DNA of 10,608 nt, from positions 5,409 to 16,016 of the forward strand of contig DCGA01000093.1 in the NCBI GenBank assembly GCA_002314465.1, given 5' to 3'. This DNA is from a bacterium UBA1790 (GTDB taxonomy: Bacteria > Bacteroidota > Bacteroidia > Bacteroidales > Muribaculaceae). Position numbers and translations under genes: made by a program. The first letter of the stretch is position 1. The number at the start of each line of letters is the position of its first letter. Under the pieces are notes generated by a model that did no database searches, was not told where the DNA came from, and saw only the letters and a program-made list of their open reading frames with translations. Below, in pieces: positions 1-8,351 of this stretch.

Positions 1-906
1 GATGTAACCCACACGTTTGCCGACGGGCATACCGACTGGCTGTTCGACGGCTTCCTGTTCCTCGATTTCAACGACGGGCGCGGCAACACATTTGTCCCGG
101 TACTGGGTGCCGATAACGGGAAGAAAGAGGACTGGGCATGGTATCTCGACCGCCTGTTCGAACGCGGCAAGTCGCTTGATGCGCTTGATAATCTCATCAG
201 CGAACTCAAAATAAAGATAGGCAATCCGGGCTTCAAGCACAAAGTGGTTCTCACACTGCTTACTCCCATTCCCAAGCATACCGGATGGGGCGAACTCAAC
301 GGCAAGGCTCTTGATTTCAACAACTACGAGGACCAGGCAGCAGCTGTGGCTTGGTACATCGACCAGATAGTGCCTCGCTTCAAGCAGCAGCACTACAAGA
401 ACCTCACTCTATCGGGACTCTACTGGGTTGACGAGGACATGTGCCACACCAAGGAACTGTGCAAGTATATTGCACCGCTTGTCCATCGCAAGAAACTTGA
501 ATTTGTATGGATTCCTTACTTCAAGGCTCGTGGAAGTGACCACTGGCAGGACTATGGTTTTGATATCGTTTATCACCAGCCCAACTATTTCTTTGATGCC
601 GCTGTGCCCATGTCGCAGCTTACAGGTTCTTGCGACTATGCGTTGCAGCATGGTATGGCTATGGAATTTGAATGTGATGCCAAGGCTCTGTATGATAGCC
701 CTAATTCGTTCCACTACCGCATGGAGGACTATATCAATGTCTTTGAGCGCTACACTGTATTCCGTAACTCGGCTATTGCCTACTACACCGGTAGCAAGGG
801 ATTTATTGATATGTTAAATAGCAAATCGCCGCAGGACCAGGCTATCATGGACCGGTTGGCAAAACTGATTGTGGACCGACGTAAAATCCATTCTTTGAAA
901 AAATAA
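1..906 (+). CDS. DUF4855-like protein, 3' portion (5' end outside window)
   Basis: The frame is open from the first base to TAA at 904-906, giving 301 visible residues; the start lies upstream of the window. The protein resembles the DUF4855 family of Bacteroidota and Firmicutes, which has no assigned reaction. Visible landmarks, numbered from base 1, are WLFDGFLFLDF near residues 13-23, SGLYWVDED at 138-146, VWIPYFKARG at 169-178, YHQPNYFF at 191-198 and GMAMEFE at 218-224. Short hydrophobic strands ending in acidic or aromatic residues look like TIM-barrel strands of a glycoside-hydrolase-like fold; that is inference, and no catalytic pair is proven. The signal peptide, if there is one, would be in the missing part. 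The stop codon overlaps the next start (TAATG), so the genes are probably translationally coupled, and an epimerase follows. This suggests a role in glycan handling. Family call is fairly sure; function is unknown. Confidence 0.75.
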   Translation, partial: DVTHTFADGHTDWLFDGFLFLDFNDGRGNTFVPVLGADNGKKEDWAWYLDRLFERGKSLDALDNLISELKIKIGNPGFKHKVVLTLLTPIPKHTGWGELNGKALDFNNYEDQAAAVAWYIDQIVPRFKQQHYKNLTLSGLYWVDEDMCHTKELCKYIAPLVHRKKLEFVWIPYFKARGSDHWQDYGFDIVYHQPNYFFDAAVPMSQLTGSCDYALQHGMAMEFECDAKALYDSPNSFHYRMEDYINVFERYTVFRNSAIAYYTGSKGFIDMLNSKSPQDQAIMDRLAKLIVDRRKIHSLKK

Positions 907-1877
907 TGAAACGCGTATATTTCATATTGCTGACAATGCTTGTGGGCTGCATGACGGCTCACGCCGCTAAGCCTATTAGCGTAGTTAAGCAGGGCGAACG
1001 CCTTGCCATACTCACTATGCACGATGGTTCACAGTATGAATATGTCTTTGAGCGTTGTATGGCTAATGAACTATACACGTTCCACACCGTTAAGGTGAAC
1101 GGCGTCATTGTCAACGAGGCAACAAGCGACAACATAGGGCCGCTACTCGTGGAAAATGCCGGATGGACCGGTGGCAATCATCTTCTTGATAACGGCAACC
1201 GCTCGGCTCGCACTGTCGAGGTCGGTTTCATGGCCGACGGCAAGAAGATGGAAAAGGATAAGACCTACAACTGCAATCGTGTGGATATTGCAGTGAAAAA
1301 CGTGCTTGCAGACCCTCGCAATGAGGATAACGTCTTGTGCACCGAGCAGGTTGCTTACGTTGTTATGGGTAATTCCATCGACGTGACACTTCAACTCTCA
1401 TTTGAATGTAAGGAACCTTGCGTAATCGACCGCTACTACGGCATGCAGTCGATGATGGTAGGGGAGAAGGCTGTTTATACCCCTGGCGGTGCCTATAGCG
1501 ATTTTACCCGCATTGACGATGTGAATAGGTTCAAGCAAGGCGATTATCCCTCATTCAACTGCTTCATTGAGCAGGGAGAGAAGTGTACACAGGCTTCCTA
1601 TCTGGCTCCAGAAGACCTGGGCAGGCACACACTTGTTGCCGACGACGATGTGTCGTTCATAGGCAATTCAAGCGGCAAGTGCTACCACAAGATGATGGGA
1701 GGCACTACAGTGCAGAGTGGTGACACCTTTAAGTGGCATGGCGTGTATGTGTGGTATGTCAATGATTTCACGCTGCGTGGCAAATACGCGTTCAAGGGAT
1801 TCTACAACGGCGAGCCGGTGATTTACGAGTGTGATACCAACGGTGCACGCCCCCTAATTACGAAAAATAAAAAATAA
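906..1877 (+). CDS. Exported protein of unknown function
   Basis: This 323-residue protein is not recognised. Its N-terminus is an export signal: MKR, then a hydrophobic stretch (residues 4-14). Two cleavage routes are possible: a lipobox-like LVGC at 12-15, giving a lipoprotein, or an AHA site at 18-20, giving a soluble periplasmic protein. The mature part is rich in aromatic, Gly and Thr residues and in alternating hydrophobic patterns, consistent with a mostly beta protein. It has several cysteines and no internal membrane segment. A central AGWTGGNHLLDNGNRS segment (about 85-100) and RYYGMQSMM (about 176-184) are memorable but match no motif I know. It starts on the last base of the preceding stop codon (TAATG) and the next gene begins 9 nt after it, so it sits inside a three-gene operon with a DUF4855-like protein and a GlcNAc 2-epimerase. 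A sugar-binding or glycan-processing role is a guess from context only. Confidence 0.8.
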   Translation: MKRVYFILLTMLVGCMTAHAAKPISVVKQGERLAILTMHDGSQYEYVFERCMANELYTFHTVKVNGVIVNEATSDNIGPLLVENAGWTGGNHLLDNGNRSARTVEVGFMADGKKMEKDKTYNCNRVDIAVKNVLADPRNEDNVLCTEQVAYVVMGNSIDVTLQLSFECKEPCVIDRYYGMQSMMVGEKAVYTPGGAYSDFTRIDDVNRFKQGDYPSFNCFIEQGEKCTQASYLAPEDLGRHTLVADDDVSFIGNSSGKCYHKMMGGTTVQSGDTFKWHGVYVWYVNDFTLRGKYAFKGFYNGEPVIYECDTNGARPLITKNKK

Positions 1878-1886
1878 CACATAGAT

Positions 1887-3068
1887 ATGATGAATAAGAC
1901 TTTTCAACAACTATCCAGTCAGTATCGCGACGAGTTGATGAACTCGGTATTACCCTTCTGGCTTAACAACTCGCAAGACAAGGAAAACGGCGGTTACTTT
2001 ACTTGCCTCACACGCGACGGTAAGGTGTTCGACACCGATAAGTTCGTGTGGATGCAGGGACGTGAAGTGTGGCTGTTCTCTATGCTTTACAACAAGGTAG
2101 AGAAACGCCAGGAATGGCTCGACTGTGCCATCCAGGGTGCCGAGTTCCTTCGCAAGTATGGCCACGATGGTGAACTCAACTGGTATTTCTCCCTTACAAG
2201 TGACGGCAAACCTCTGGTAGAACCATATAACATCTTCTCTTACACATTTGCCACGATGGCGTTCGGACAGCTTGCAATAGCAACAGGCAACAAGGAATAT
2301 GAGCGCATAGCACTTGAAACCTACAAGAAAGTGCTTAGCAAGCAGGACAACCCCAAGGGAAAGTGGAATAAGGTGGTGGGCGGCACTCGTCCCCTCAAGA
2401 ACTTTGCGCTGCCCATGATTCTGTGCAACCTCGCTCTTGAGATTGAGCCGCTGCTCGATGCCGACTTCATGGCACAGAGCATCGACCGTTGCATACATGA
2501 GGTTATGGACGTGTTCTTGCGTCCCGAACTGGGAGGCATTGTTGTGGAGAACGTGGGGCTTGACGGCGAACTTGTTGACTGCATGGACGGACGCCACATG
2601 AATCCCGGTCATGCAATTGAGGCGATGTGGTTTATCATGGATCTGGGTGTGCGCCTTAACCGCCCCGAACTTGTTCAGCGCGCCAAGGACACTGCAATCA
2701 AGATGGCCGAGTACGGCTGGGATGAGAAGTATGGCGGTATTTTCTATTTCATGGATCGTCTGGGATATCCCACACAGGAACTTGAATGGGACCAGAAATT
2801 GTGGTGGGTACACATCGAAACACTCATTGCCATGATTAAGGGTTATGAACTCACCGGCGACGAGCGTTGTCTGGAATGGTTCAACCGTGTTCACGATTAT
2901 GTGTGGACTCATTTCAAGGACGCCGAGCATCCCGAGTGGTTCGGTTACCTCAACCGTCAGGGCGAGGTGCTGCTATCGCTCAAGGGCGGCAAGTGGAAGG
3001 GCTGCTTCCATGTTCCTCGTGGCTTGTATCAATGCTGGCAAGTGCTTGACCGCCTTGCAAAGAAATAA
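1887..3068 (+). CDS. N-acylglucosamine 2-epimerase (AGE / renin-binding protein family)
   Basis: This 393-residue cytoplasmic (alpha/alpha)6-barrel enzyme should interconvert N-acetylglucosamine and N-acetylmannosamine. In Bacteroides relatives this step links sialic-acid-derived ManNAc to GlcNAc metabolism. Family landmarks run in order: ENGGYFTCL (33-41), FVWMQGREVW (53-62), NPGHAIEAMWF (239-249), PTQELEWDQKLWWVHIET (295-312), EWFGYLNRQGEV (350-361) and KGCFHVPRGL (371-380). The expected catalytic or substrate-binding residues are present: R59, H242, E311 and H375. These blocks match the mammalian renin-binding protein/AGE branch much better than cellobiose or mannobiose 2-epimerases, and length is normal. 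ATG 1887 is followed directly by a second ATG at 1890, so the true start could be either. There is no signal peptide. It is last in a three-gene operon and is followed by an intrinsic terminator. No sialidase, neuraminate lyase or hexosamine kinase is visible here, so the physiological substrate stays inferred. Confidence 0.92.
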   Translation: MMNKTFQQLSSQYRDELMNSVLPFWLNNSQDKENGGYFTCLTRDGKVFDTDKFVWMQGREVWLFSMLYNKVEKRQEWLDCAIQGAEFLRKYGHDGELNWYFSLTSDGKPLVEPYNIFSYTFATMAFGQLAIATGNKEYERIALETYKKVLSKQDNPKGKWNKVVGGTRPLKNFALPMILCNLALEIEPLLDADFMAQSIDRCIHEVMDVFLRPELGGIVVENVGLDGELVDCMDGRHMNPGHAIEAMWFIMDLGVRLNRPELVQRAKDTAIKMAEYGWDEKYGGIFYFMDRLGYPTQELEWDQKLWWVHIETLIAMIKGYELTGDERCLEWFNRVHDYVWTHFKDAEHPEWFGYLNRQGEVLLSLKGGKWKGCFHVPRGLYQCWQVLDRLAKK

Positions 3069-3083
3069 CCCCAAGTGAAGGAG

Positions 3084-3105
3084 AAAGCCGTCTCTGTATG
3101 GCTTT
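3084..3105 (+). other. Small hairpin between epimerase stop and terminator
   Basis: AAAGCCGT (3084-3091) pairs with ATGGCTTT (3098-3105), eight pairs including one G.U, around the loop CTCTGT. It lies 15 nt after the epimerase stop and just before the main terminator stem. It has no T-run of its own, so it is more likely a transcript 3'-end stabiliser or accessory stem than a terminator. Confidence 0.45.
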
Positions 3106-3112
3106 ATGGGGA

Positions 3113-3153
3113 GAGGGGAGCACCGTTATGGCGCTCCCCTCGCTATTTTTTTT
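3113..3153 (+). terminator. Intrinsic terminator after the epimerase operon
   Basis: GAGGGGAGC (3113-3121) pairs perfectly with GCTCCCCTC (3133-3141). The loop allows two more C-G pairs after an A.C mismatch. After CGCTA a run of eight Ts (3146-3153) follows. This is a classic rho-independent terminator for the plus-strand operon. In the opposite direction the stem is followed by CTCCCCATAAAG, not a T-run, so the converging minus-strand operon gets little or no termination from it. Confidence 0.9.
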
Positions 3154-3172
3154 CACAATGTAAATGCTTGTG

Positions 3173-3916
3173 TTACCTTAGCCTTGGGAAAACGGCTACA
3201 ATGGGCCTGTGGTCGCTTGCCATGGGCTCTTCTAATACAGTGTACCCCTTGGCTTGTGCGCGACGAGCCACAGCGTTTTTGTACACGGCTATGTAGTCTA
3301 TCTTGATGTTGGGTTTGTCGGCGGGGAATGTCGGGATAGTGCTGTCGCCCACAACCGTAAAGTGTTTGCCGAATTGCGCTATGAACTCCTCGGTTGGCTC
3401 GGCATTGAAATCTCCGGCAATGATAAAGGGCTTGTTACTCTGTTTGGCCGCCTCAATTATTATGGGCAACGACGCTATGCGGTCGGCCTCGGTAAGCGAC
3501 AAGTGTGTGCATGCAACGATGTATCGCTTGAACTCCACAACCACAAGTGTGCGATTCTCCTCGCGTCCGGGCAGCGCGTATTGCTTTACGCTAATAGGCT
3601 TGTTGCGTGATAACAGGGCAATGCCGTATTTCCCGCCTTGGAAGTTAATGGCAGGGGCATAGGTGGCAACATATCCGCAAGCCTGGGCAATCGTGTCGCT
3701 CACCACGGCTCCGCCATAGCGCACAGTGGCACTGTCCACTTCCTGCAGCATTAATATGTCGGGCTTTTGGGCATTGATTACATCAATCACGCGGGTGTAA
3801 TCCACGTTTTTGTCCATGCCCTTGCAATTGCGTATGTTGTAAGACATCACCTTTAGGCCTCCGGCCATAGCGGTGAGGCTGCATGCCATTGCCAGTATTA
3901 AGAGCCATTTTTTCAT
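3173..3916 (-). CDS. Secreted endonuclease/exonuclease/phosphatase-family protein
   Basis: This is a 247-residue metal-dependent hydrolase of the EEP fold (DNase I / ExoIII / sphingomyelinase / inositol phosphatase superfamily). The N-terminus (MKKWLLILAMACSLTAMA, cleavage after A18) is a signal peptide, so it acts in the periplasm or outside. Conserved EEP blocks are all present: MSYNIR with N27, LQEVD with E59 (metal ligand), THLS with H138, GDFN with D169 and N171, KIDYI with D207, and SDHRP with D235 and H236 (catalytic His). The active site therefore looks intact. The substrate cannot be read from this: Bacteroidota encode many such exported EEP proteins annotated loosely as endonucleases or phosphodiesterases. 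It begins 6 nt after the sugar transporter stop, so it is almost certainly co-transcribed with it, which suggests removal of a phosphate or phosphodiester from a carbohydrate. I see no strong terminator downstream on this strand. Confidence 0.9.
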   Translation of the reverse strand: MKKWLLILAMACSLTAMAGGLKVMSYNIRNCKGMDKNVDYTRVIDVINAQKPDILMLQEVDSATVRYGGAVVSDTIAQACGYVATYAPAINFQGGKYGIALLSRNKPISVKQYALPGREENRTLVVVEFKRYIVACTHLSLTEADRIASLPIIIEAAKQSNKPFIIAGDFNAEPTEEFIAQFGKHFTVVGDSTIPTFPADKPNIKIDYIAVYKNAVARRAQAKGYTVLEEPMASDHRPIVAVFPRLR

Positions 3917-3922
3917 AGCGGT

Positions 3923-5323
3923 TTATTTTTTACGGTTGGTCCAGTAGTGCTCTATTTCTTCAAGAGACTTGCCCGCGGTTTCGGGGATATAGCGCCACAT
4001 GATGAACAGGTAAGGCAGGCACATTACAGCAAACAGGAGGAATGTACCGCTTGCTGTGATTGTCTCGAGCAGCCACGGAGTGAGTTGTCCCACAAGGTAT
4101 GTGCCTATCCACAGCGCAAATCCGGCAATAGACATCGCGAGGCCACGCACGCGGGTGGGGTACATCTCGCTGAGCAATACCCATACAACTGCACATATCG
4201 ATACCGCTGTGAAGAATACATAGAGCAAGAATAACACCAGCATGACCACACTGGGGATACCCAACTTGGCGCCCATGGTGAAGTAGAATGCAATGAGGAT
4301 GAGCGATACAATCATGCCGCTCACACCATAATAGATGAGTTTCTTGCGGCCCACCTTGTCGATGATGAACAGGGCAAGCACCGTTGTGAGCATGTTAACC
4401 ATACCCACCAGCACCTGGTAGAACAGTGAGTCACCGCTCGACAGACCTGCGTCCTCAAATATCTTGGGACCGTAGTAAAGCACTGCGTTCACGCCCATGA
4501 ACTGCCCCAGGATGGCAATGAGGGTTCCGCACACGAGTGCGGTGAAGATACCGGGCGAGAAGAGCAGTTTTACATCGCTCTTCACCTCGTTGCCCACGCT
4601 TTGCTTCACTTCCTCGACCTGCTGTTCCGAGTCGCTCTGCTCAACATATATCTTGTTGAATGTAGTTACTGCCTTGTCGGCCTTGCCGTTAACGATGAGC
4701 CAACGCGGACTCTCGGGCAGCATGAAAATCACCGCAAAGAAAAGCAGTGCGGGAATGGTTTCGAGTCCCAGCATGCCTCGGTACACCTGTGTAACCATGA
4801 TTTCGTTCCACAATCCCTCGCCGACGGGTGCCGTGAGAGAGTAGTTAAGCACCATGTAGTTGGCAAGATATGCTGCCACAAAGCCTATGGTGATGGCAAG
4901 TTGATAGGTTGATACAAGTGTTCCCCTTATCTTGGTCACGGCAATCTCCGAGATATACATGGGGCATACAATCGATGCCACACCTATACCCACTCCGCCA
5001 ATGATGCGGTAGGCTACCAGCGAAGTGAAATCACTGCAGAGGGCACAACCTATCGCTGATGCCGAGAACAGGATTGCCGACAGAATCATGGTGGGCTTGC
5101 GGCCCCATGTGTCGCTCATCTTTCCCGATGCGGCTACACCGAGTATTGAGCCGAGGAGGGCGCACCCCACATACCAGCCTTGTGACACTGCATCAAGGCC
5201 GTATATTTCACTCACTTGGCTGATTGTTCCTGAGATTACTGCGGTATCATATCCGAAGAGAAAACCGCCGCCTGCAGCCACCAGCGACAGGAATATTACA
5301 TATCCGAGGTTAAAGTTCTTCAT
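3923..5323 (-). CDS. MFS sugar:H+ symporter (XylE/GLUT-type sugar porter)
   Basis: This 466-residue inner-membrane protein has the 12-helix pattern of the major facilitator superfamily, with a charged central loop (about 211-255). Sugar-porter signatures are in place: GYDTAVISG (24-32), SDTWGRK (70-76), PMYISEIA (121-128), PESPRWL (204-210), QFMGVNAVLYYGP (274-286), DKVGRKK (322-328), VVWVLLSEMYP (379-389) and PETAGKSLEEIE (447-458). It is closest in feel to XylE-type proton symporters. Residues matching the XylE sugar pocket include Q274, N279 and W381. The first glutamine of the usual QQ pair is Gly273, which may shift specificity. The substrate (a pentose or hexose) is not determined. It is the first gene of an operon with the secreted EEP protein and is divergent from a ROK repressor that probably controls it. 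Its upstream region carries a promoter and a perfect palindrome. No Shine-Dalgarno sequence precedes the ATG, as usual in Bacteroidota. Confidence 0.93.
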   Translation of the reverse strand: MKNFNLGYVIFLSLVAAGGGFLFGYDTAVISGTISQVSEIYGLDAVSQGWYVGCALLGSILGVAASGKMSDTWGRKPTMILSAILFSASAIGCALCSDFTSLVAYRIIGGVGIGVASIVCPMYISEIAVTKIRGTLVSTYQLAITIGFVAAYLANYMVLNYSLTAPVGEGLWNEIMVTQVYRGMLGLETIPALLFFAVIFMLPESPRWLIVNGKADKAVTTFNKIYVEQSDSEQQVEEVKQSVGNEVKSDVKLLFSPGIFTALVCGTLIAILGQFMGVNAVLYYGPKIFEDAGLSSGDSLFYQVLVGMVNMLTTVLALFIIDKVGRKKLIYYGVSGMIVSLILIAFYFTMGAKLGIPSVVMLVLFLLYVFFTAVSICAVVWVLLSEMYPTRVRGLAMSIAGFALWIGTYLVGQLTPWLLETITASGTFLLFAVMCLPYLFIMWRYIPETAGKSLEEIEHYWTNRKK

Positions 5324-5337
5324 TGCTTGTTTGTGTT

Positions 5338-5351
5338 ATTTGATTTCAAAT
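5338..5351. promoter_or_regulatory. Candidate repressor operator (perfect inverted repeat)
   Basis: ATTTGA-TT-TCAAAT is a perfect 6+2+6 inverted repeat. It sits between the minus-strand -7 element (5353-5360) and the transporter start codon, over the expected transcription start. A dimeric repressor bound here would block initiation. The divergent ROK protein is the obvious candidate ligand; that assignment is inference. A weaker related repeat, CAAA-TG-TTTG, lies at 5423-5432 nearer the ROK gene. Confidence 0.5.
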
Positions 5352-5352
5352 G

Positions 5353-5383
5353 CAAATATAGTCATTTATATCCACATAATAAA
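5353..5383 (-). promoter_or_regulatory. Bacteroidota-type promoter for the transporter operon
   Basis: On the minus strand, TATATTTG (5360-5353) matches the -7 consensus TAnnTTTG exactly. A TTTA (5383-5380) stands 19 nt upstream at the position of the -33 TTTG element, one base off consensus. Start of transcription would fall around 5347, about 25 nt ahead of the transporter ATG. Confidence 0.65.
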
Positions 5384-5394
5384 TTTTTTTATTA
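5377..5394. repeat. AT-rich inverted repeat in divergent control region
   Basis: TAATAAA-TTTT-TTTATTA is a perfect 7+4+7 inverted repeat overlapping the -33 position of the transporter promoter. It may be a second regulator site or an AT-rich promoter enhancer. Low base complexity makes chance occurrence plausible. Confidence 0.3.
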
Positions 5395-5464
5395 AGTAAA
5401 TGACGATAAGTTAAGCCCGTTACAAATGTTTGACTAATTATTGAAAAATAAAGGTCTGCTAATT

Positions 5465-5494
5465 TTTGTTTTTCATGGTTTTTGTGTATTTTTG
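5465..5494 (+). promoter_or_regulatory. Bacteroidota-type promoter for the ROK gene
   Basis: TATTTTTG (5487-5494) is a full match to the -7 element TAnnTTTG. TTTG at 5465-5468 is 18 nt upstream, one short of the usual 19-21 spacing. Transcription would begin about 5500, leaving a leader of only about ten bases before ATG 5511. This promoter covers the alternative upstream ATG at 5466, which argues against that longer start. Confidence 0.65.
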
Positions 5495-5510
5495 CATTAA
5501 AATTATAATT

Positions 5511-6722
5511 ATGACCCATAGTATATTTGAGGACCTTAAAAGTGGAAGTAAATCGTCGTTGTTGCGCAAACGTATGATTTCGCACTTGATATTGAACGGG
5601 AATACTACCATTAACGATTTATCTAAGGTGGTGGATGTGAGTGTGCCCACAGCAACCAAATTGGTGGATGAACTTTGCGGACAGGGCATTCTTGATGTTT
5701 TCGGCAAGATGGAGACCAATGGTGGCCGCCATCCCTATCTTTATGGCCTCAACCCCGATGCTGCCTATTTTGTGGGTGTTGACATCAAAAACAGTGGCGT
5801 CAACATGGGACTCATCAATTTCAACGGTCAGATGATTGAAAGCGAGATGAACATGCCTTACACCTTTGAGAATTCCGAAGAGGGTCTCAAAAACCTGTGT
5901 GACGTGATTTCGCGCTTTATCAACGAATGCGACGTAAACAAGGAAAAGATATTTAATATCCATGTCAATGTATCGGGCCGCGTCAATCCCGATTCGGGAT
6001 ATAGTTACAGTTGGTTCAATCTGGGTGAGAGTCCTCTGGCAAGTACCATGCAGGAAATGCTGGGTTATAATGTAACGCTTGATAACGATACCCGCGCAAT
6101 GACTTATGCCGAGTTTGTCAGTAGTCGTGAAAATAGCGACAACGTTTTGTTTGTCAACCTCAGTTGGGGTCTTGGTATGGGCATTATCATTGATGGCAAT
6201 GTTTATTCGGGTCGCTCAGGATTCGCGGGGGAGTTTGGTCATACACCTGCGTTCGACAACGAGATAATGTGCCATTGCGGCAAGAAGGGCTGCCTCGAGA
6301 CCGAGGCTTCGGGACGTGCGATGCATCGCATCCTGGGAGAGCGCATAAAGGCTGGCGAGAGCAGCATCTTGAGCGAGCAGTATCTTAAGAATCCCCAGTC
6401 GGTTACACTTGAGAATATGGTTGATGCCGTTAACGGCGACGATACCCTGTGCATCGACATTGTGGAGGAAATCGGTGCAAAACTCGGCAAGAGCATTGCA
6501 GGCCTTATCAATGTGCTCAACCCCGATACCGTTATCATTGGCGGTATCATGTCGGTTACCGGCGACTACTTGTTGCAGCCCATCAAGACATCGGTGCGCA
6601 AGCATTCGCTCAGTATCGTCAACAAAGATACTAAGATTGTACTTTCTACCCTTCAGGGCAAAGCCGGTATTGTGGGCGCATGTATGCTGGCACGCTATCG
6701 TGCCTTCGACTTCGTCAAGTAA
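5511..6722 (+). CDS. ROK-family transcriptional regulator (NagC/XylR type)
   Basis: This is a 403-residue DNA-binding sugar sensor. Residues about 18-65 form a winged helix-turn-helix (LRKRMISHLILNGNTTINDL, then SVPTATKLVDEL as recognition helix), with the wing carrying TNGGRHP (69-75). The rest is a ROK domain: VGVDIKNSG (89-96), the sugar-site DNDTRA (191-196), LSWGLGMGI (218-226), GEFGHTP (240-246), the zinc cluster CHCGKKGC (254-261) followed by LE, and VIIGG (341-345). The nucleotide-binding DxGGT loop is altered to DIKNSG, as expected of a regulator rather than a kinase, although N192-D193 of the kinase active site remain. An ATG 45 nt upstream (5466) is in frame, but it would add a hydrophobic FFMVFVYF extension and lies inside the promoter, so 5511 is preferred. 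It is divergent from the transporter-EEP operon, which it probably represses in the absence of a sugar ligand. It may also influence the epimerase operon. Confidence 0.92.
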   Translation: MTHSIFEDLKSGSKSSLLRKRMISHLILNGNTTINDLSKVVDVSVPTATKLVDELCGQGILDVFGKMETNGGRHPYLYGLNPDAAYFVGVDIKNSGVNMGLINFNGQMIESEMNMPYTFENSEEGLKNLCDVISRFINECDVNKEKIFNIHVNVSGRVNPDSGYSYSWFNLGESPLASTMQEMLGYNVTLDNDTRAMTYAEFVSSRENSDNVLFVNLSWGLGMGIIIDGNVYSGRSGFAGEFGHTPAFDNEIMCHCGKKGCLETEASGRAMHRILGERIKAGESSILSEQYLKNPQSVTLENMVDAVNGDDTLCIDIVEEIGAKLGKSIAGLINVLNPDTVIIGGIMSVTGDYLLQPIKTSVRKHSLSIVNKDTKIVLSTLQGKAGIVGACMLARYRAFDFVK

Positions 6723-6748: not shown

Positions 6749-8029
6749 CTAGTCTGTTCTGAAAATAATGTTAACAATGTCATTTATGTCGGCAATGTCT
6801 ACTTTTTCATCGTCATTAACGTCGGCACGGTTTCCGTATCTCATGTGATTTGAAAAGGAAAGCATTGAGTTAAGAATACAATTTATATCTAGAATATCGA
6901 TATTATTATCGTTATTGACATCTCCAGCTTCGCTTCTTTTGCAAAGTTCTTTCATTTCTGGAAAGTCTTTTATTAATTGGTCGGCTAAAGCTTGTGCTCC
7001 TAGTGCTGAAGGGTGTAAATTATCTGAACTCAAAAATCCTTCGGTCCATTTAGCCCCTTTCTCCGTAGCATTAACAGCTGTTGCAAAATCAATATATTTG
7101 ACATTGTTCTGTCTTATCCAATTGTTTTTTGCTACGTGGCATCTTGTTGGTGTGTTAGGAATTGTAGAAATGATAAGTTGTATTCCATTCTCATCACAAT
7201 ATTTTTTTAGGTTTGTGAGTTGGTACATCCATGATGATTGAACTGTTTCTTCATCAGGGTCTGGATTGTTCATTCCTAAGAACCACAGAATGTAAGAGGG
7301 ATTAATAAATGGTTTCAAGCGTTCAATTTCAAAACTTGTATCCCACGCGGTTGCTCCGCTTAATGCATCAAAAAGGAAATTGAAATAACCGCTATTTCGT
7401 ACATAATATGGCCATCGTGCTGAAGCAACACTCATGTAAGAATCACCAAGAATCAATACAGGTCTATTAAAATCTGCGCAATCGGCTGTAAGAGTCCCAT
7501 TTGTGCCTGTGGTATTTACACTTTCAAAAAATGTAGTGCCATTATGGCCATAATACCAGTCAATAGGCCTATTAAGAGTTTGGTCTTTTGTCTTAATTTG
7601 AATTTTGGATTTAAATGACGATGCATCATTTCCCTTATAACTACCAATGAAAATATGTACACTAATTGTATCAATGATATTCAAATTATGTTTGATACTT
7701 GTGAACTCAGTTGTGTCTTTGTCTCGACTTACTCTTTTTATTGAGAGAATGCTATCATTTATTTCTAAATAGCATGCCGACAAGTAGTCCCCTTTCATAT
7801 CTGGTTGACGTTGCCCAATGCGTATGCACTCAAAGTGATCTATCCTTGAATTAAAAGAGAAGTATAATTCTTTATGAATATTATATGGGAAGTTTTTCAA
7901 TTCTAGACTCGTATGGTTTTGAATTGAATCTATTTGAATTAAGGAATTGTTGGTGCCGTTAATTGTTGATGATAGTGCTAATAAGTTGATAGCAACAGCG
8001 GATAGGATAAGGATTTTTTTTAGGGCCAT
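6749..8029 (-). CDS. Secreted SGNH/GDSL hydrolase with C-terminal type I dockerin
   Basis: This 426-residue exported esterase/lipase-like protein has three parts. It starts with a signal peptide (residues 1 to about 24). An N-terminal region (about 28-185) is probably beta-sandwich. The SGNH domain spans about 188-360. Catalytic blocks are intact: GDS (195-197, nucleophile S197), G225 in SGATAWD, GMN with N254, and DNLH with D336 and H339. Such domains in Bacteroidota often de-acetylate or de-esterify polysaccharides; the exact substrate is unknown. Residues 368-425 form a dockerin: two calcium-loop repeats, D370-V-N372-x-D374-x3-D378-x2-D381 and D403-V-N405-x-D407-x3-D411-x2-D414. No cohesin or scaffoldin gene is in the window. 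The gene is strikingly AT-rich and uses A/T-ending codons unlike its neighbours, suggesting recent acquisition. It converges on the ROK gene with a gap of only 26 nt and no evident terminator. About 290 nt of structured sequence precede it. Confidence 0.9.
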   Translation of the reverse strand: MALKKILILSAVAINLLALSSTINGTNNSLIQIDSIQNHTSLELKNFPYNIHKELYFSFNSRIDHFECIRIGQRQPDMKGDYLSACYLEINDSILSIKRVSRDKDTTEFTSIKHNLNIIDTISVHIFIGSYKGNDASSFKSKIQIKTKDQTLNRPIDWYYGHNGTTFFESVNTTGTNGTLTADCADFNRPVLILGDSYMSVASARWPYYVRNSGYFNFLFDALSGATAWDTSFEIERLKPFINPSYILWFLGMNNPDPDEETVQSSWMYQLTNLKKYCDENGIQLIISTIPNTPTRCHVAKNNWIRQNNVKYIDFATAVNATEKGAKWTEGFLSSDNLHPSALGAQALADQLIKDFPEMKELCKRSEAGDVNNDNNIDILDINCILNSMLSFSNHMRYGNRADVNDDEKVDIADINDIVNIIFRTD

Positions 8030-8035
8030 AATATT

Positions 8036-8164
8036 TCATTTTTTCGTATAAGTACCTGTTTTGCAGATAAGCACAAATTCTAAAATCGGATATTCGGGCA
8101 CAAAATACGTGAGCCTTGAATGTCGTTTCTTAGAGGCTCGGCAAAGCCCTACCACAAACGACAT
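8036..8164 (-). CDS. Possible 42-residue small ORF in the structured region (doubtful)
   Basis: ATG at 8164 opens a frame of 42 codons ending with TGA at 8038-8036, just 6 nt before the SGNH start codon. The frame stays open upstream to a TAG at about 8227. The product would begin MSFVVGLCRASKKRHSRL and end FVLICKTGTYTKK. It has no signal peptide or known motif. The same bases form the long stem and closing stem of the predicted RNA, which better explains their constraint. It could be a leader peptide coupling translation to the SGNH gene, but spurious reading of a non-coding RNA is more likely. Confidence 0.15.
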   Translation of the reverse strand: MSFVVGLCRASKKRHSRLTYFVPEYPILEFVLICKTGTYTKK

Positions 8165-8309
8165 ACAATGGCTCACGCCATAGTCTGTTCCTAGTTTCCT
8201 CTGGGCACTTATATAGCGTGAGCGCTATTGTCGATAGTCCTTGTGGTATGAAATTTTGCCGATTTCTAAGAAGGACAATACCTTTATAACGCGTCTTCGT
8301 TATCTGCAA
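8061..8309 (-). ncRNA. Highly structured RNA (6S-like candidate or long leader of the SGNH gene)
   Basis: The roughly 446-base gap between SGNH and dgt is not empty. Bases 8061-8070 (TTGCAGATAA) are perfectly complementary to 8300-8309 (TTATCTGCAA), closing a domain of about 250 nt. Inside, 8083-8089 pairs with 8259-8265 (7 bp) and 8101-8106 with 8253-8258 (6 bp). A long arm pairs 8108-8115 with 8170-8177 (8 bp) and 8120-8128 with 8156-8164 (9 bp). Local hairpins lie at 8213-8228 (6 bp, TGAG loop) and 8286-8303 (6 bp). Transcription is assigned to the minus strand because a consensus promoter sits just beyond its 5' end. On that strand, 8254-8240 reads ATTTCATACCACAAG, which as I recall it equals a segment of E. 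coli 6S RNA beside the central bubble. End-pairing plus an internal bubble fits 6S in outline, but length and branching do not fit cleanly. No T-run ends it before the SGNH start, so a structured 5' leader is the main alternative. Confidence 0.55.
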
Positions 8310-8338
8310 TGTAACATTGCAAAGTTATTATTTTTTTT
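8305..8338 (+). terminator. Weak terminator-like hairpin with T-run
   Basis: TGCAATG (8305-8311) pairs with CATTGCA (8315-8321) around TAA. It is followed by AAAGTTATTA and eight Ts (8331-8338). It could end a plus-strand transcript of the structured region. The stem is AT-rich, the T-run is offset by ten bases, and the same bases hold the minus-strand promoter, so this reading is less likely. Confidence 0.25.
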
Positions 8339-8351
8339 AAAACAGAACAAA
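8320..8351 (-). promoter_or_regulatory. Consensus Bacteroidota promoter driving the structured RNA / SGNH gene
   Basis: On the minus strand, TTTG (8351-8348) and TAACTTTG (8327-8320) are separated by 20 nt, an exact match to TTTG-N19-21-TAnnTTTG. Transcription should start near 8313, a few bases before the closing stem of the structured RNA. Transcription toward SGNH would give an untranslated leader of about 285 nt. Confidence 0.7.

Follow-up and report, generated by a model that had tools for sequence, protein, structure and literature searches.

A two-fold leader RNA, probably a transcription attenuator, upstream of an SGNH-dockerin gene and of diverse genes in other Bacteroidota

Introduction

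RNA-based control is thinly charted in Bacteroidota, a dominant phylum of the gut and rumen. Trp-type attenuators are built on leader segments that pair as 1:2, 2:3 and 3:4, the terminator consisting of 3:4 and a U-tract. Terminator-controlling riboswitches and antitermination RNAs of the put and EAR type are structured leaders that overlap an intrinsic terminator. In kissing antisense RNAs such as CopA-CopT, two complementary hairpin loops seed a longer duplex.

The element described here, from a 10,608-nucleotide stretch of DNA (the window) of a Muribaculaceae bacterium (UBA1790, contig DCGA01000093.1), resembles each of these systems in part. It shares with trp-type attenuators the three-way scheme and the use of 3:4 plus a U-tract as terminator, whereas its loops L1 and L2 pair mutually to give one long hairpin, its downstream genes do not, by Pfam, form amino-acid operons, and it lacks an Rfam match. 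Like riboswitches and put/EAR RNAs it is a structured leader overlapping an intrinsic terminator, yet it is without a recognised constant, unpaired, aptamer-like core and its downstream genes are unrelated. As in CopA-CopT, two hairpin loops show complementarity, here covarying, from which a longer duplex can grow; unlike in that system, both loops sit in one molecule.

Among RNAs reported from the phylum, the Bacteroid-trp motif (RF01692) and Bacteroidales-1 RNA (RF01693), the latter without assigned function, are listed in PMC2864571. PMC8040213 describes HMP2_4205, HMP2_1065 and HMP2_1032, Bacteroidetes RNAs of 80-132 bp near TPR, ruvA or tonB genes; compared by description only, they are like the element in being palindromic predicted terminators of Bacteroidetes, but are shorter. 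Our literature search, which also covered passages of PMC7366714 and PMC10994844, found nothing describing the element, and PMC8632094 and PMC11109978 contain none of the Bacteroidota terms looked for in them; the 64 structured 5' regions of a flavobacterium (PMC9723704) or the 3161 candidate RNAs of PMC8040213 could contain it undescribed.

Results

The element lies between dgt on the plus strand, whose product has HD and HD_assoc domains (Pfam), and an SGNH/GDSL-like dockerin gene on the minus strand. An earlier note, made from the letters of the window alone, had proposed a structured RNA in this gap (8061-8309) with more pairing than expected by chance, and folding bears this out: the interval has a z-score of -6.70 on the plus and -5.50 on the minus strand, with 0 of 200 dinucleotide shuffles equally stable in either case. 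A coding explanation, which the note had discounted, was dropped; among ORFs of 60 aa or longer, the lengths listed for the window, a single one enters the interval, from a TTG at 8241. The minus-strand promoter described there, TTTG-N20-TAACTTTG, is present to the letter and directed at the SGNH-dockerin gene, and its boxes are presumed to follow the -33/-7 consensus of Bacteroidota type that the note had applied. Transcription would start at about 8313-8316, and the structured RNA extends from about 8314 to 8102 (minus strand), between the promoter (8320-8351) and the start codon at 8029. We read the minus-strand element as the 5' leader of the SGNH-dockerin gene, its functional strand being set by homologues. 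The 426-aa product scores 26.6 bits for Dockerin_1 (cut-off 22.9) and 22.3 bits for Lipase_GDSL_2, under the cut-off of 32.9. Positions 1-6722 of the window encode a DUF4855 protein, a GlcNAc 2-epimerase, a protein of the endonuclease/phosphatase fold, a sugar transporter and a ROK regulator (Pfam), possibly a glycan-related cluster.

All stems named beforehand were recovered as inverted repeats (Table 1), several of which are mutually exclusive alternatives rather than parts of one fold. Left unconstrained, the leader in the window folds into a long hairpin of -73.7 kcal/mol; its halves alone reach -22.1 and -40.0 kcal/mol. The 10-bp stem TTGCAGATAA/TTATCTGCAA (8061-8070/8300-8309), taken in the note to close the whole structure, is real in the window (p 0.01) but not conserved in the family, where an equivalent at p<=0.05 occurs in 10 of 83 elements against about 4 expected.

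Table 1. Features of the leader and its surroundings, in positions of the window
Feature	Position	Strand	Basis
-33 box TTTG, Bacteroidota-type promoter	8348..8351	-	Sequence; upstream box counts in 84 elements
-7 box TAACTTTG	8320..8327	-	Sequence; promoter counts in 84 elements
Segment 1 (a1), outer part; partner is segment 2 in fold X (HP1a) or segment 4 in fold Y (P1)	8286..8297	-	Column map, pair counts
Segment 1, inner part (HP1b); partner within 8226-8241 in fold X	8272..8280	-	Inverted repeat I19, pair counts
Loop L1: P2 arm 8265-8272, hairpin hp1 with P3 loop 8255-8262, P4 arm 8241-8248	8241..8272	-	I11-I13
Segment 2 (a2); partner is segment 1 (X) or segment 3 (Y, P5a/P5b)	8212..8241	-	I4, pair counts
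Apical region, variable, almost missing in some distant members	8183..8211	-	Core lengths and sequences
Segment 3 (b1); partner is segment 2 (Y) or segment 4 (X, terminator)	8156..8182	-	I3, I4, I10
Loop L2, complement of L1: P4 arm 8150-8157, hp2 with P3 loop 8138-8145, P2 arm 8126-8134	8126..8157	-	I11-I13
Segment 4 (b2), 3' arm of predicted intrinsic terminator	8104..8126	-	I10, I3; 3' part alone -40.0 kcal/mol
U-tract UAUUUU behind terminator	8102..8107	-	Sequence
10-mer past terminator, partner 8300-8309; no family feature	8061..8070	-	Inverted repeat and family test
Presumed regulated gene, SGNH/GDSL-like with C-terminal dockerin, 426 aa	6749..8029	-	ORF; Pfam
Inverted repeats I11-I13	8127-8134/8265-8272, 8138-8145/8255-8262, 8150-8157/8241-8248		
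Inverted repeat I4	8171-8182/8212-8223		
Inverted repeat I3	8116-8128/8156-8168		
Inverted repeat I10	8108-8115/8170-8177		
Inverted repeat I19	8226-8232/8274-8280		

A blastn search of 101 genomes gave long matches in just two others, both of the same genus (two copies at 73% and 71% identity in one, G043, and one at 69% in the other, G027), and short partial matches in three further genomes. The homologues found in this way keep the same hairpin with letters altered in concert, the compensatory stem changes that the note had named as a check on its proposal. RNAalifold on four sequences returned a mixed fold, a first sign of alternative pairing. In 120 genomes of relatives, a covariance model of the core (R1, 159 positions) picked up members in 58 at E<=0.01. 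A second model, R2, spans the full length (237 positions) and was trained on 36 sequences, the window among them. It matched 102 of 247 genomes and 78 of 166 genera in an order-wide sample, and 27 of 296 genomes in a phylum-wide sample, eight of them outside the class with lower scores; the window's genome is counted in all three scans, and the order and phylum of the sampled genomes are taken as Bacteroidales and Bacteroidota. The best R2 score in 67,694 bases of other DNA was 8.8 bits, the window as a training sequence scores 104.8 bits, and members outside the training set reach up to 169.4 bits (L140). The order and phylum scans scored just 7-8 candidates per genome; with 150 candidates scored, ten genomes picked for many matches or a single-contig assembly (G315, G416) held 16, 14, 25, 9, 9, 7, 6, 14, 21 and 6 copies. 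The window's genome has one copy in an assembly that is 60% complete. Two paralogues (L017 and L022) carry an extra hairpin in the promoter region, CTTGTGGGTC..GCCATAG..TTGGCA..CACAAG, that the window copy lacks.

None of the 4227 families of Rfam 15, 6S, Flavo-1 and Bacteroides-1 included, matched over the element in the window at E<=5. The same held for seven homologous loci at E<=1 and for 19 class- or phylum-level loci at E<=0.5, where the few matches sit elsewhere. The note had proposed a check against 6S and Bacteroidales-specific families; neither 6S nor Bacteroidales-1 matched. Bacteroidales-1 (RF01693) was found in 56 of 101 genomes, 55 of them over the cut-off, and not in that of the window; as a separate locus, with no RF01693 match in the window at E<=5, it was dropped. 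A FopS small RNA (RF04319, 81.6 bits) was seen at 6505-6575 (minus strand) of locus L080, about 2.3 kb from its leader copy.

Comparison of the homologues points to two alternative structures. In fold Y, P1 (1:4), P2, P3, P4, P5 (2:3) and the apical part make up a single long hairpin. Fold X consists of the hairpins 1:2 (HP1) and 3:4 (the terminator), with inner hairpins hp1 and hp2 whose loops form P3. Using the same segments, the two predicted folds are mutually exclusive in full. Pairing was scored on a MAFFT alignment (A5) of 36 of 43 elements, from which six with short apical regions (L069, L072, L074, L075, L077, L083) and L087, close to L086, were left out. Covariation was counted for P2 and P3, and P4 was omitted since its columns align poorly. 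On A5, the remaining 49 pairs of fold Y were standard in 87.6% of cells, and both sides had changed in 247 cells compared with 81.7 (sd 8.1) in shuffles, none of 500 reaching the observed value; sliding the fold by 1-3 columns lowered pairing to 40-47%. Both sides had changed in eight of nine P2 pairs. The P2 arm has 31 distinct sequences among the 36 rows, 28 of which form every one of the seven inner pairs. The 42 pairs of fold X were paired at 87.1%, with 66 cells changed on both sides (shuffles 22.3, sd 3.9; 0/500).

A second set (A6, 44 rows, mostly other families) behaved alike. Two of its rows, L149 (an antisense match at 26.8 bits) and L164 (a fragment at 29.2 bits), enter the pair counts but not the count of gene context. 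Here fold Y was paired at 90.2% with 384 both-side changes (shuffles 115.6, sd 10.0) and fold X at 87.7% with 77 (shuffles 26.4, sd 4.5; 0/500). Fold Y underlies both covariance models and the fit of A6, which makes fold X the cleaner test on this set. In the first set, the pairs of HP1a, P1 and the terminator drove no detection, because R1 covers neither segment 4 nor the outer portion of segment 1. The terminator helix T was paired at 92.9% on A5 and 94.0% on A6. Two elements (L165, L173) carry a concerted change of one position in all four segments, as a four-partner scheme requires; three others (L148, L159, L172) show such a change in part only. A putative antiterminator pairing has been kept in evolution, with P5a/P5b excluding T, T2 and HP1 on the same segments.

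Folding energies were derived from alignment-column constraints and are unreliable for misregistered rows, the window's X value included. Before the second loop is made, 2:3 is lower than 1:2 in 18 of 36 elements with a mean difference of 0.9 kcal/mol, a balance that holds across the set only: in individual elements the gap reaches 25 kcal/mol, in either direction. At the terminator, fold Y is lower in 35 of 36 elements, by 10.3 kcal/mol on average. Since Y is favoured at that point, termination would have to be kinetic or factor-driven. At least six T follow within 9 nt of the terminator arm in 70 of 84 elements, a count for which the chance expectation was not computed; the U-tract of the window is a weak one. 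Of the 75 elements that could be scored, 39 have a complement to segment 4 past the terminator (p<=0.05; about 4 expected); the other nine of the 84 lacked a clear arm or enough sequence. The window has no clear partner of this kind (p 0.92).

The prevalence of fold Y also suits a stability or processing element, in which Y would protect the 5' end of the mRNA or serve as substrate for a double-strand RNase, the terminator-like fold being incidental. The sequence freedom of the P2 arm, with its inner pairs retained, is what a need for a helix only would produce. A protective hairpin, however, needs neither compensatory changes in the pairs of fold X nor a T-run past the 3:4 arm, and we hold this explanation to be rather unlikely.

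The surroundings of the copies bear on whether the RNA acts in cis. With ORFs called by a simple script, the nearest downstream ORF shared the element's strand in 38 of 43 cases (two opposite, three with none in reach), in 39 of 42 of the second set and in 17 of 19 class- or phylum-level loci (one opposite, one with none), while the upstream neighbour was on that strand in 20/43, 28/42 and 10/19. Three genomes, G150, G416 and G315, gave a same-strand downstream ORF for 19 of 20 elements. These 43, 42, 19 and 20 elements are a subset of all matches, mostly picked by score, and the sets overlap, the window being in the first two and L212 of the last being L184 of the third. TAnnTTTG occurs within 130 nt upstream of 74 of 84 elements (8.2 expected) and a two-box promoter upstream of 32 (0.8 expected). 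Together, promoter, same-strand ORF and T-run indicate a 5' leader of the following gene that would end in an intrinsic terminator.

The earlier note had left the choice between an independent small RNA and a leader of the SGNH-dockerin gene, and of the two it is the leader that the same-strand ORFs favour. A small RNA of about 210-250 nt would have its own promoter and terminator, which do bound a discrete unit, and its loops could target other RNAs; the neighbouring gene would be transcribed by leakage or from elsewhere. It would leave unaccounted for the next ORF, mostly close behind on the same strand and more often called exported than other ORFs of the same loci, and the frequent post-terminator complement to segment 4. 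We therefore regard an independent RNA as improbable, and note that a short terminated RNA would still be a natural product of a leader.

The downstream products appear diverse and enriched for exported proteins. Pfam, applied to 65 of 77 downstream ORFs, found 52 families, including subtilase, FGE-sulfatase, outer-membrane barrels, restriction-modification and HNH; LRR_5 was present in 11 proteins, Dockerin_1 in six and a type IX secretion tail in three. A crude signal-peptide rule called 45 of 66 downstream products (from 84 elements) exported; among the remaining ORFs of these loci the figure was 105 of 346 (Fisher p 1e-8), with length limits that differ between the groups (80 versus 120 aa). 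A small GTPase-like gene (GxxNAGK by eye) follows the leader in two genomes (L062, L078), and a subtilase gene does so in different genomes (L073, L084; by eye). Retention of the leader with the same gene family across genomes is what a cis element should show. In three loci from other orders of the class (L182, L183, L189), the downstream ORF looks by eye like a SusC/TonB-dependent receptor with the leader about 210 nt before it, a possible link to glycan-uptake loci.

No common pathway was seen among the 65 downstream proteins with Pfam, and no signal was pointed to. This diversity weighs against a metabolite riboswitch with its aptamer in the conserved core, for which the switch geometry, a sequence-conserved small hairpin (GAAA...TTTC) and the CGCTCACG/GCGTGGGG segments might otherwise speak. 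The conserved bases, moreover, largely coincide (by eye) with the pairing segments of both schemes, and the apical region has shrunk to a short loop in some distant members, which leaves a riboswitch with little credence.

Multiple copies within a genome suggest how the leader may have spread. The 1.9-Mb genome G150 holds 14 copies (L198-L211), five of which (L198, L203, L205, L206, L209) have common blocks of 694-826 nt at 75-83% identity. These blocks reach into the intergenic DNA upstream and stop past the terminator but short of the start codons, the genes themselves being unrelated, which suggests copying of the leader in front of new genes. We keep this as a lead, because the DNA upstream of L203 also has tandem repeats.

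The upstream intergenic blocks of G150 contain tandem AAATTAAACGGCGTTT-like repeats. Gene cassettes are not claimed for this genome; the 3' motif shared behind the genes, a hairpin followed by a T-run, is probably a terminator typical of the species. Some copies sit close to contig ends, at a few hundred bases or less (e.g. G076:C597:198, G150:C36:207, G196:C40:57; chance level not computed), as if repeated or variable DNA beside them had broken the assemblies. Plasmid or phage cargo was dropped as an origin; viral, plasmid and phage collections gave no match by blastn or exact pattern, searches that a diverged copy would escape. A DNA-level repeat (a MITE, or a recombination or gene-cassette site) placed before genes by chance would fit the several diverged copies in other genomes and the shared G150 blocks before unrelated genes, but the lone copy in the window's incomplete assembly, the orientation to the next gene with promoter and U-tract on one strand, and the lack of a viral, plasmid or phage match for the queries used make it highly implausible.

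Discussion

In our view the element is probably, with real room for doubt, an mRNA leader that acts in cis as a transcription attenuator. At the level of sequence, this reading has behind it a promoter, a leader position, a terminator, two conserved folds and covarying complementarity between two loops. Attenuation is a kind of control already known; what looks new is the loop-loop arrangement and the spread over unrelated genes, often for exported proteins.

As polymerase leaves the promoter, hairpin 1:2 would be made first. If 3:4 then closes, polymerase would stop about 210 nt past the start. Alternatively, the loops of hp1 and hp2 may kiss through P3 and zip via P2 and P4 before 3:4 can close. 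The kiss would seed conversion of fold X into the single long hairpin of fold Y and allow read-through into the gene. In about half of the members tested, an extra segment just before the gene is predicted to pair with the freed segment 4 and could hold the read-through form open. The balance between X and Y may be set by a factor or by polymerase speed; candidate inputs are an RNA-binding protein, a small RNA, a metabolite or the speed of polymerase itself. Of these, a metabolite seems to us less likely than a trans factor or polymerase speed, as no constant unpaired core was recognised across the family.

A broader proposal, which we put forward as a speculation with the odds against it, is a new class of cis-regulatory RNA across Bacteroidota. 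In it, a kiss-driven change from terminator to antiterminator would respond to one trans factor and govern surface and accessory genes, which copying of a promoter-leader cassette would have joined into a common regulon. If the attenuator reading is right, one leader RNA absent from Rfam would control a set of genes for exported and accessory proteins in each genome, through a termination decision of unusual architecture in which two loops of one molecule pair, and a new global RNA regulator of Bacteroidota could emerge.
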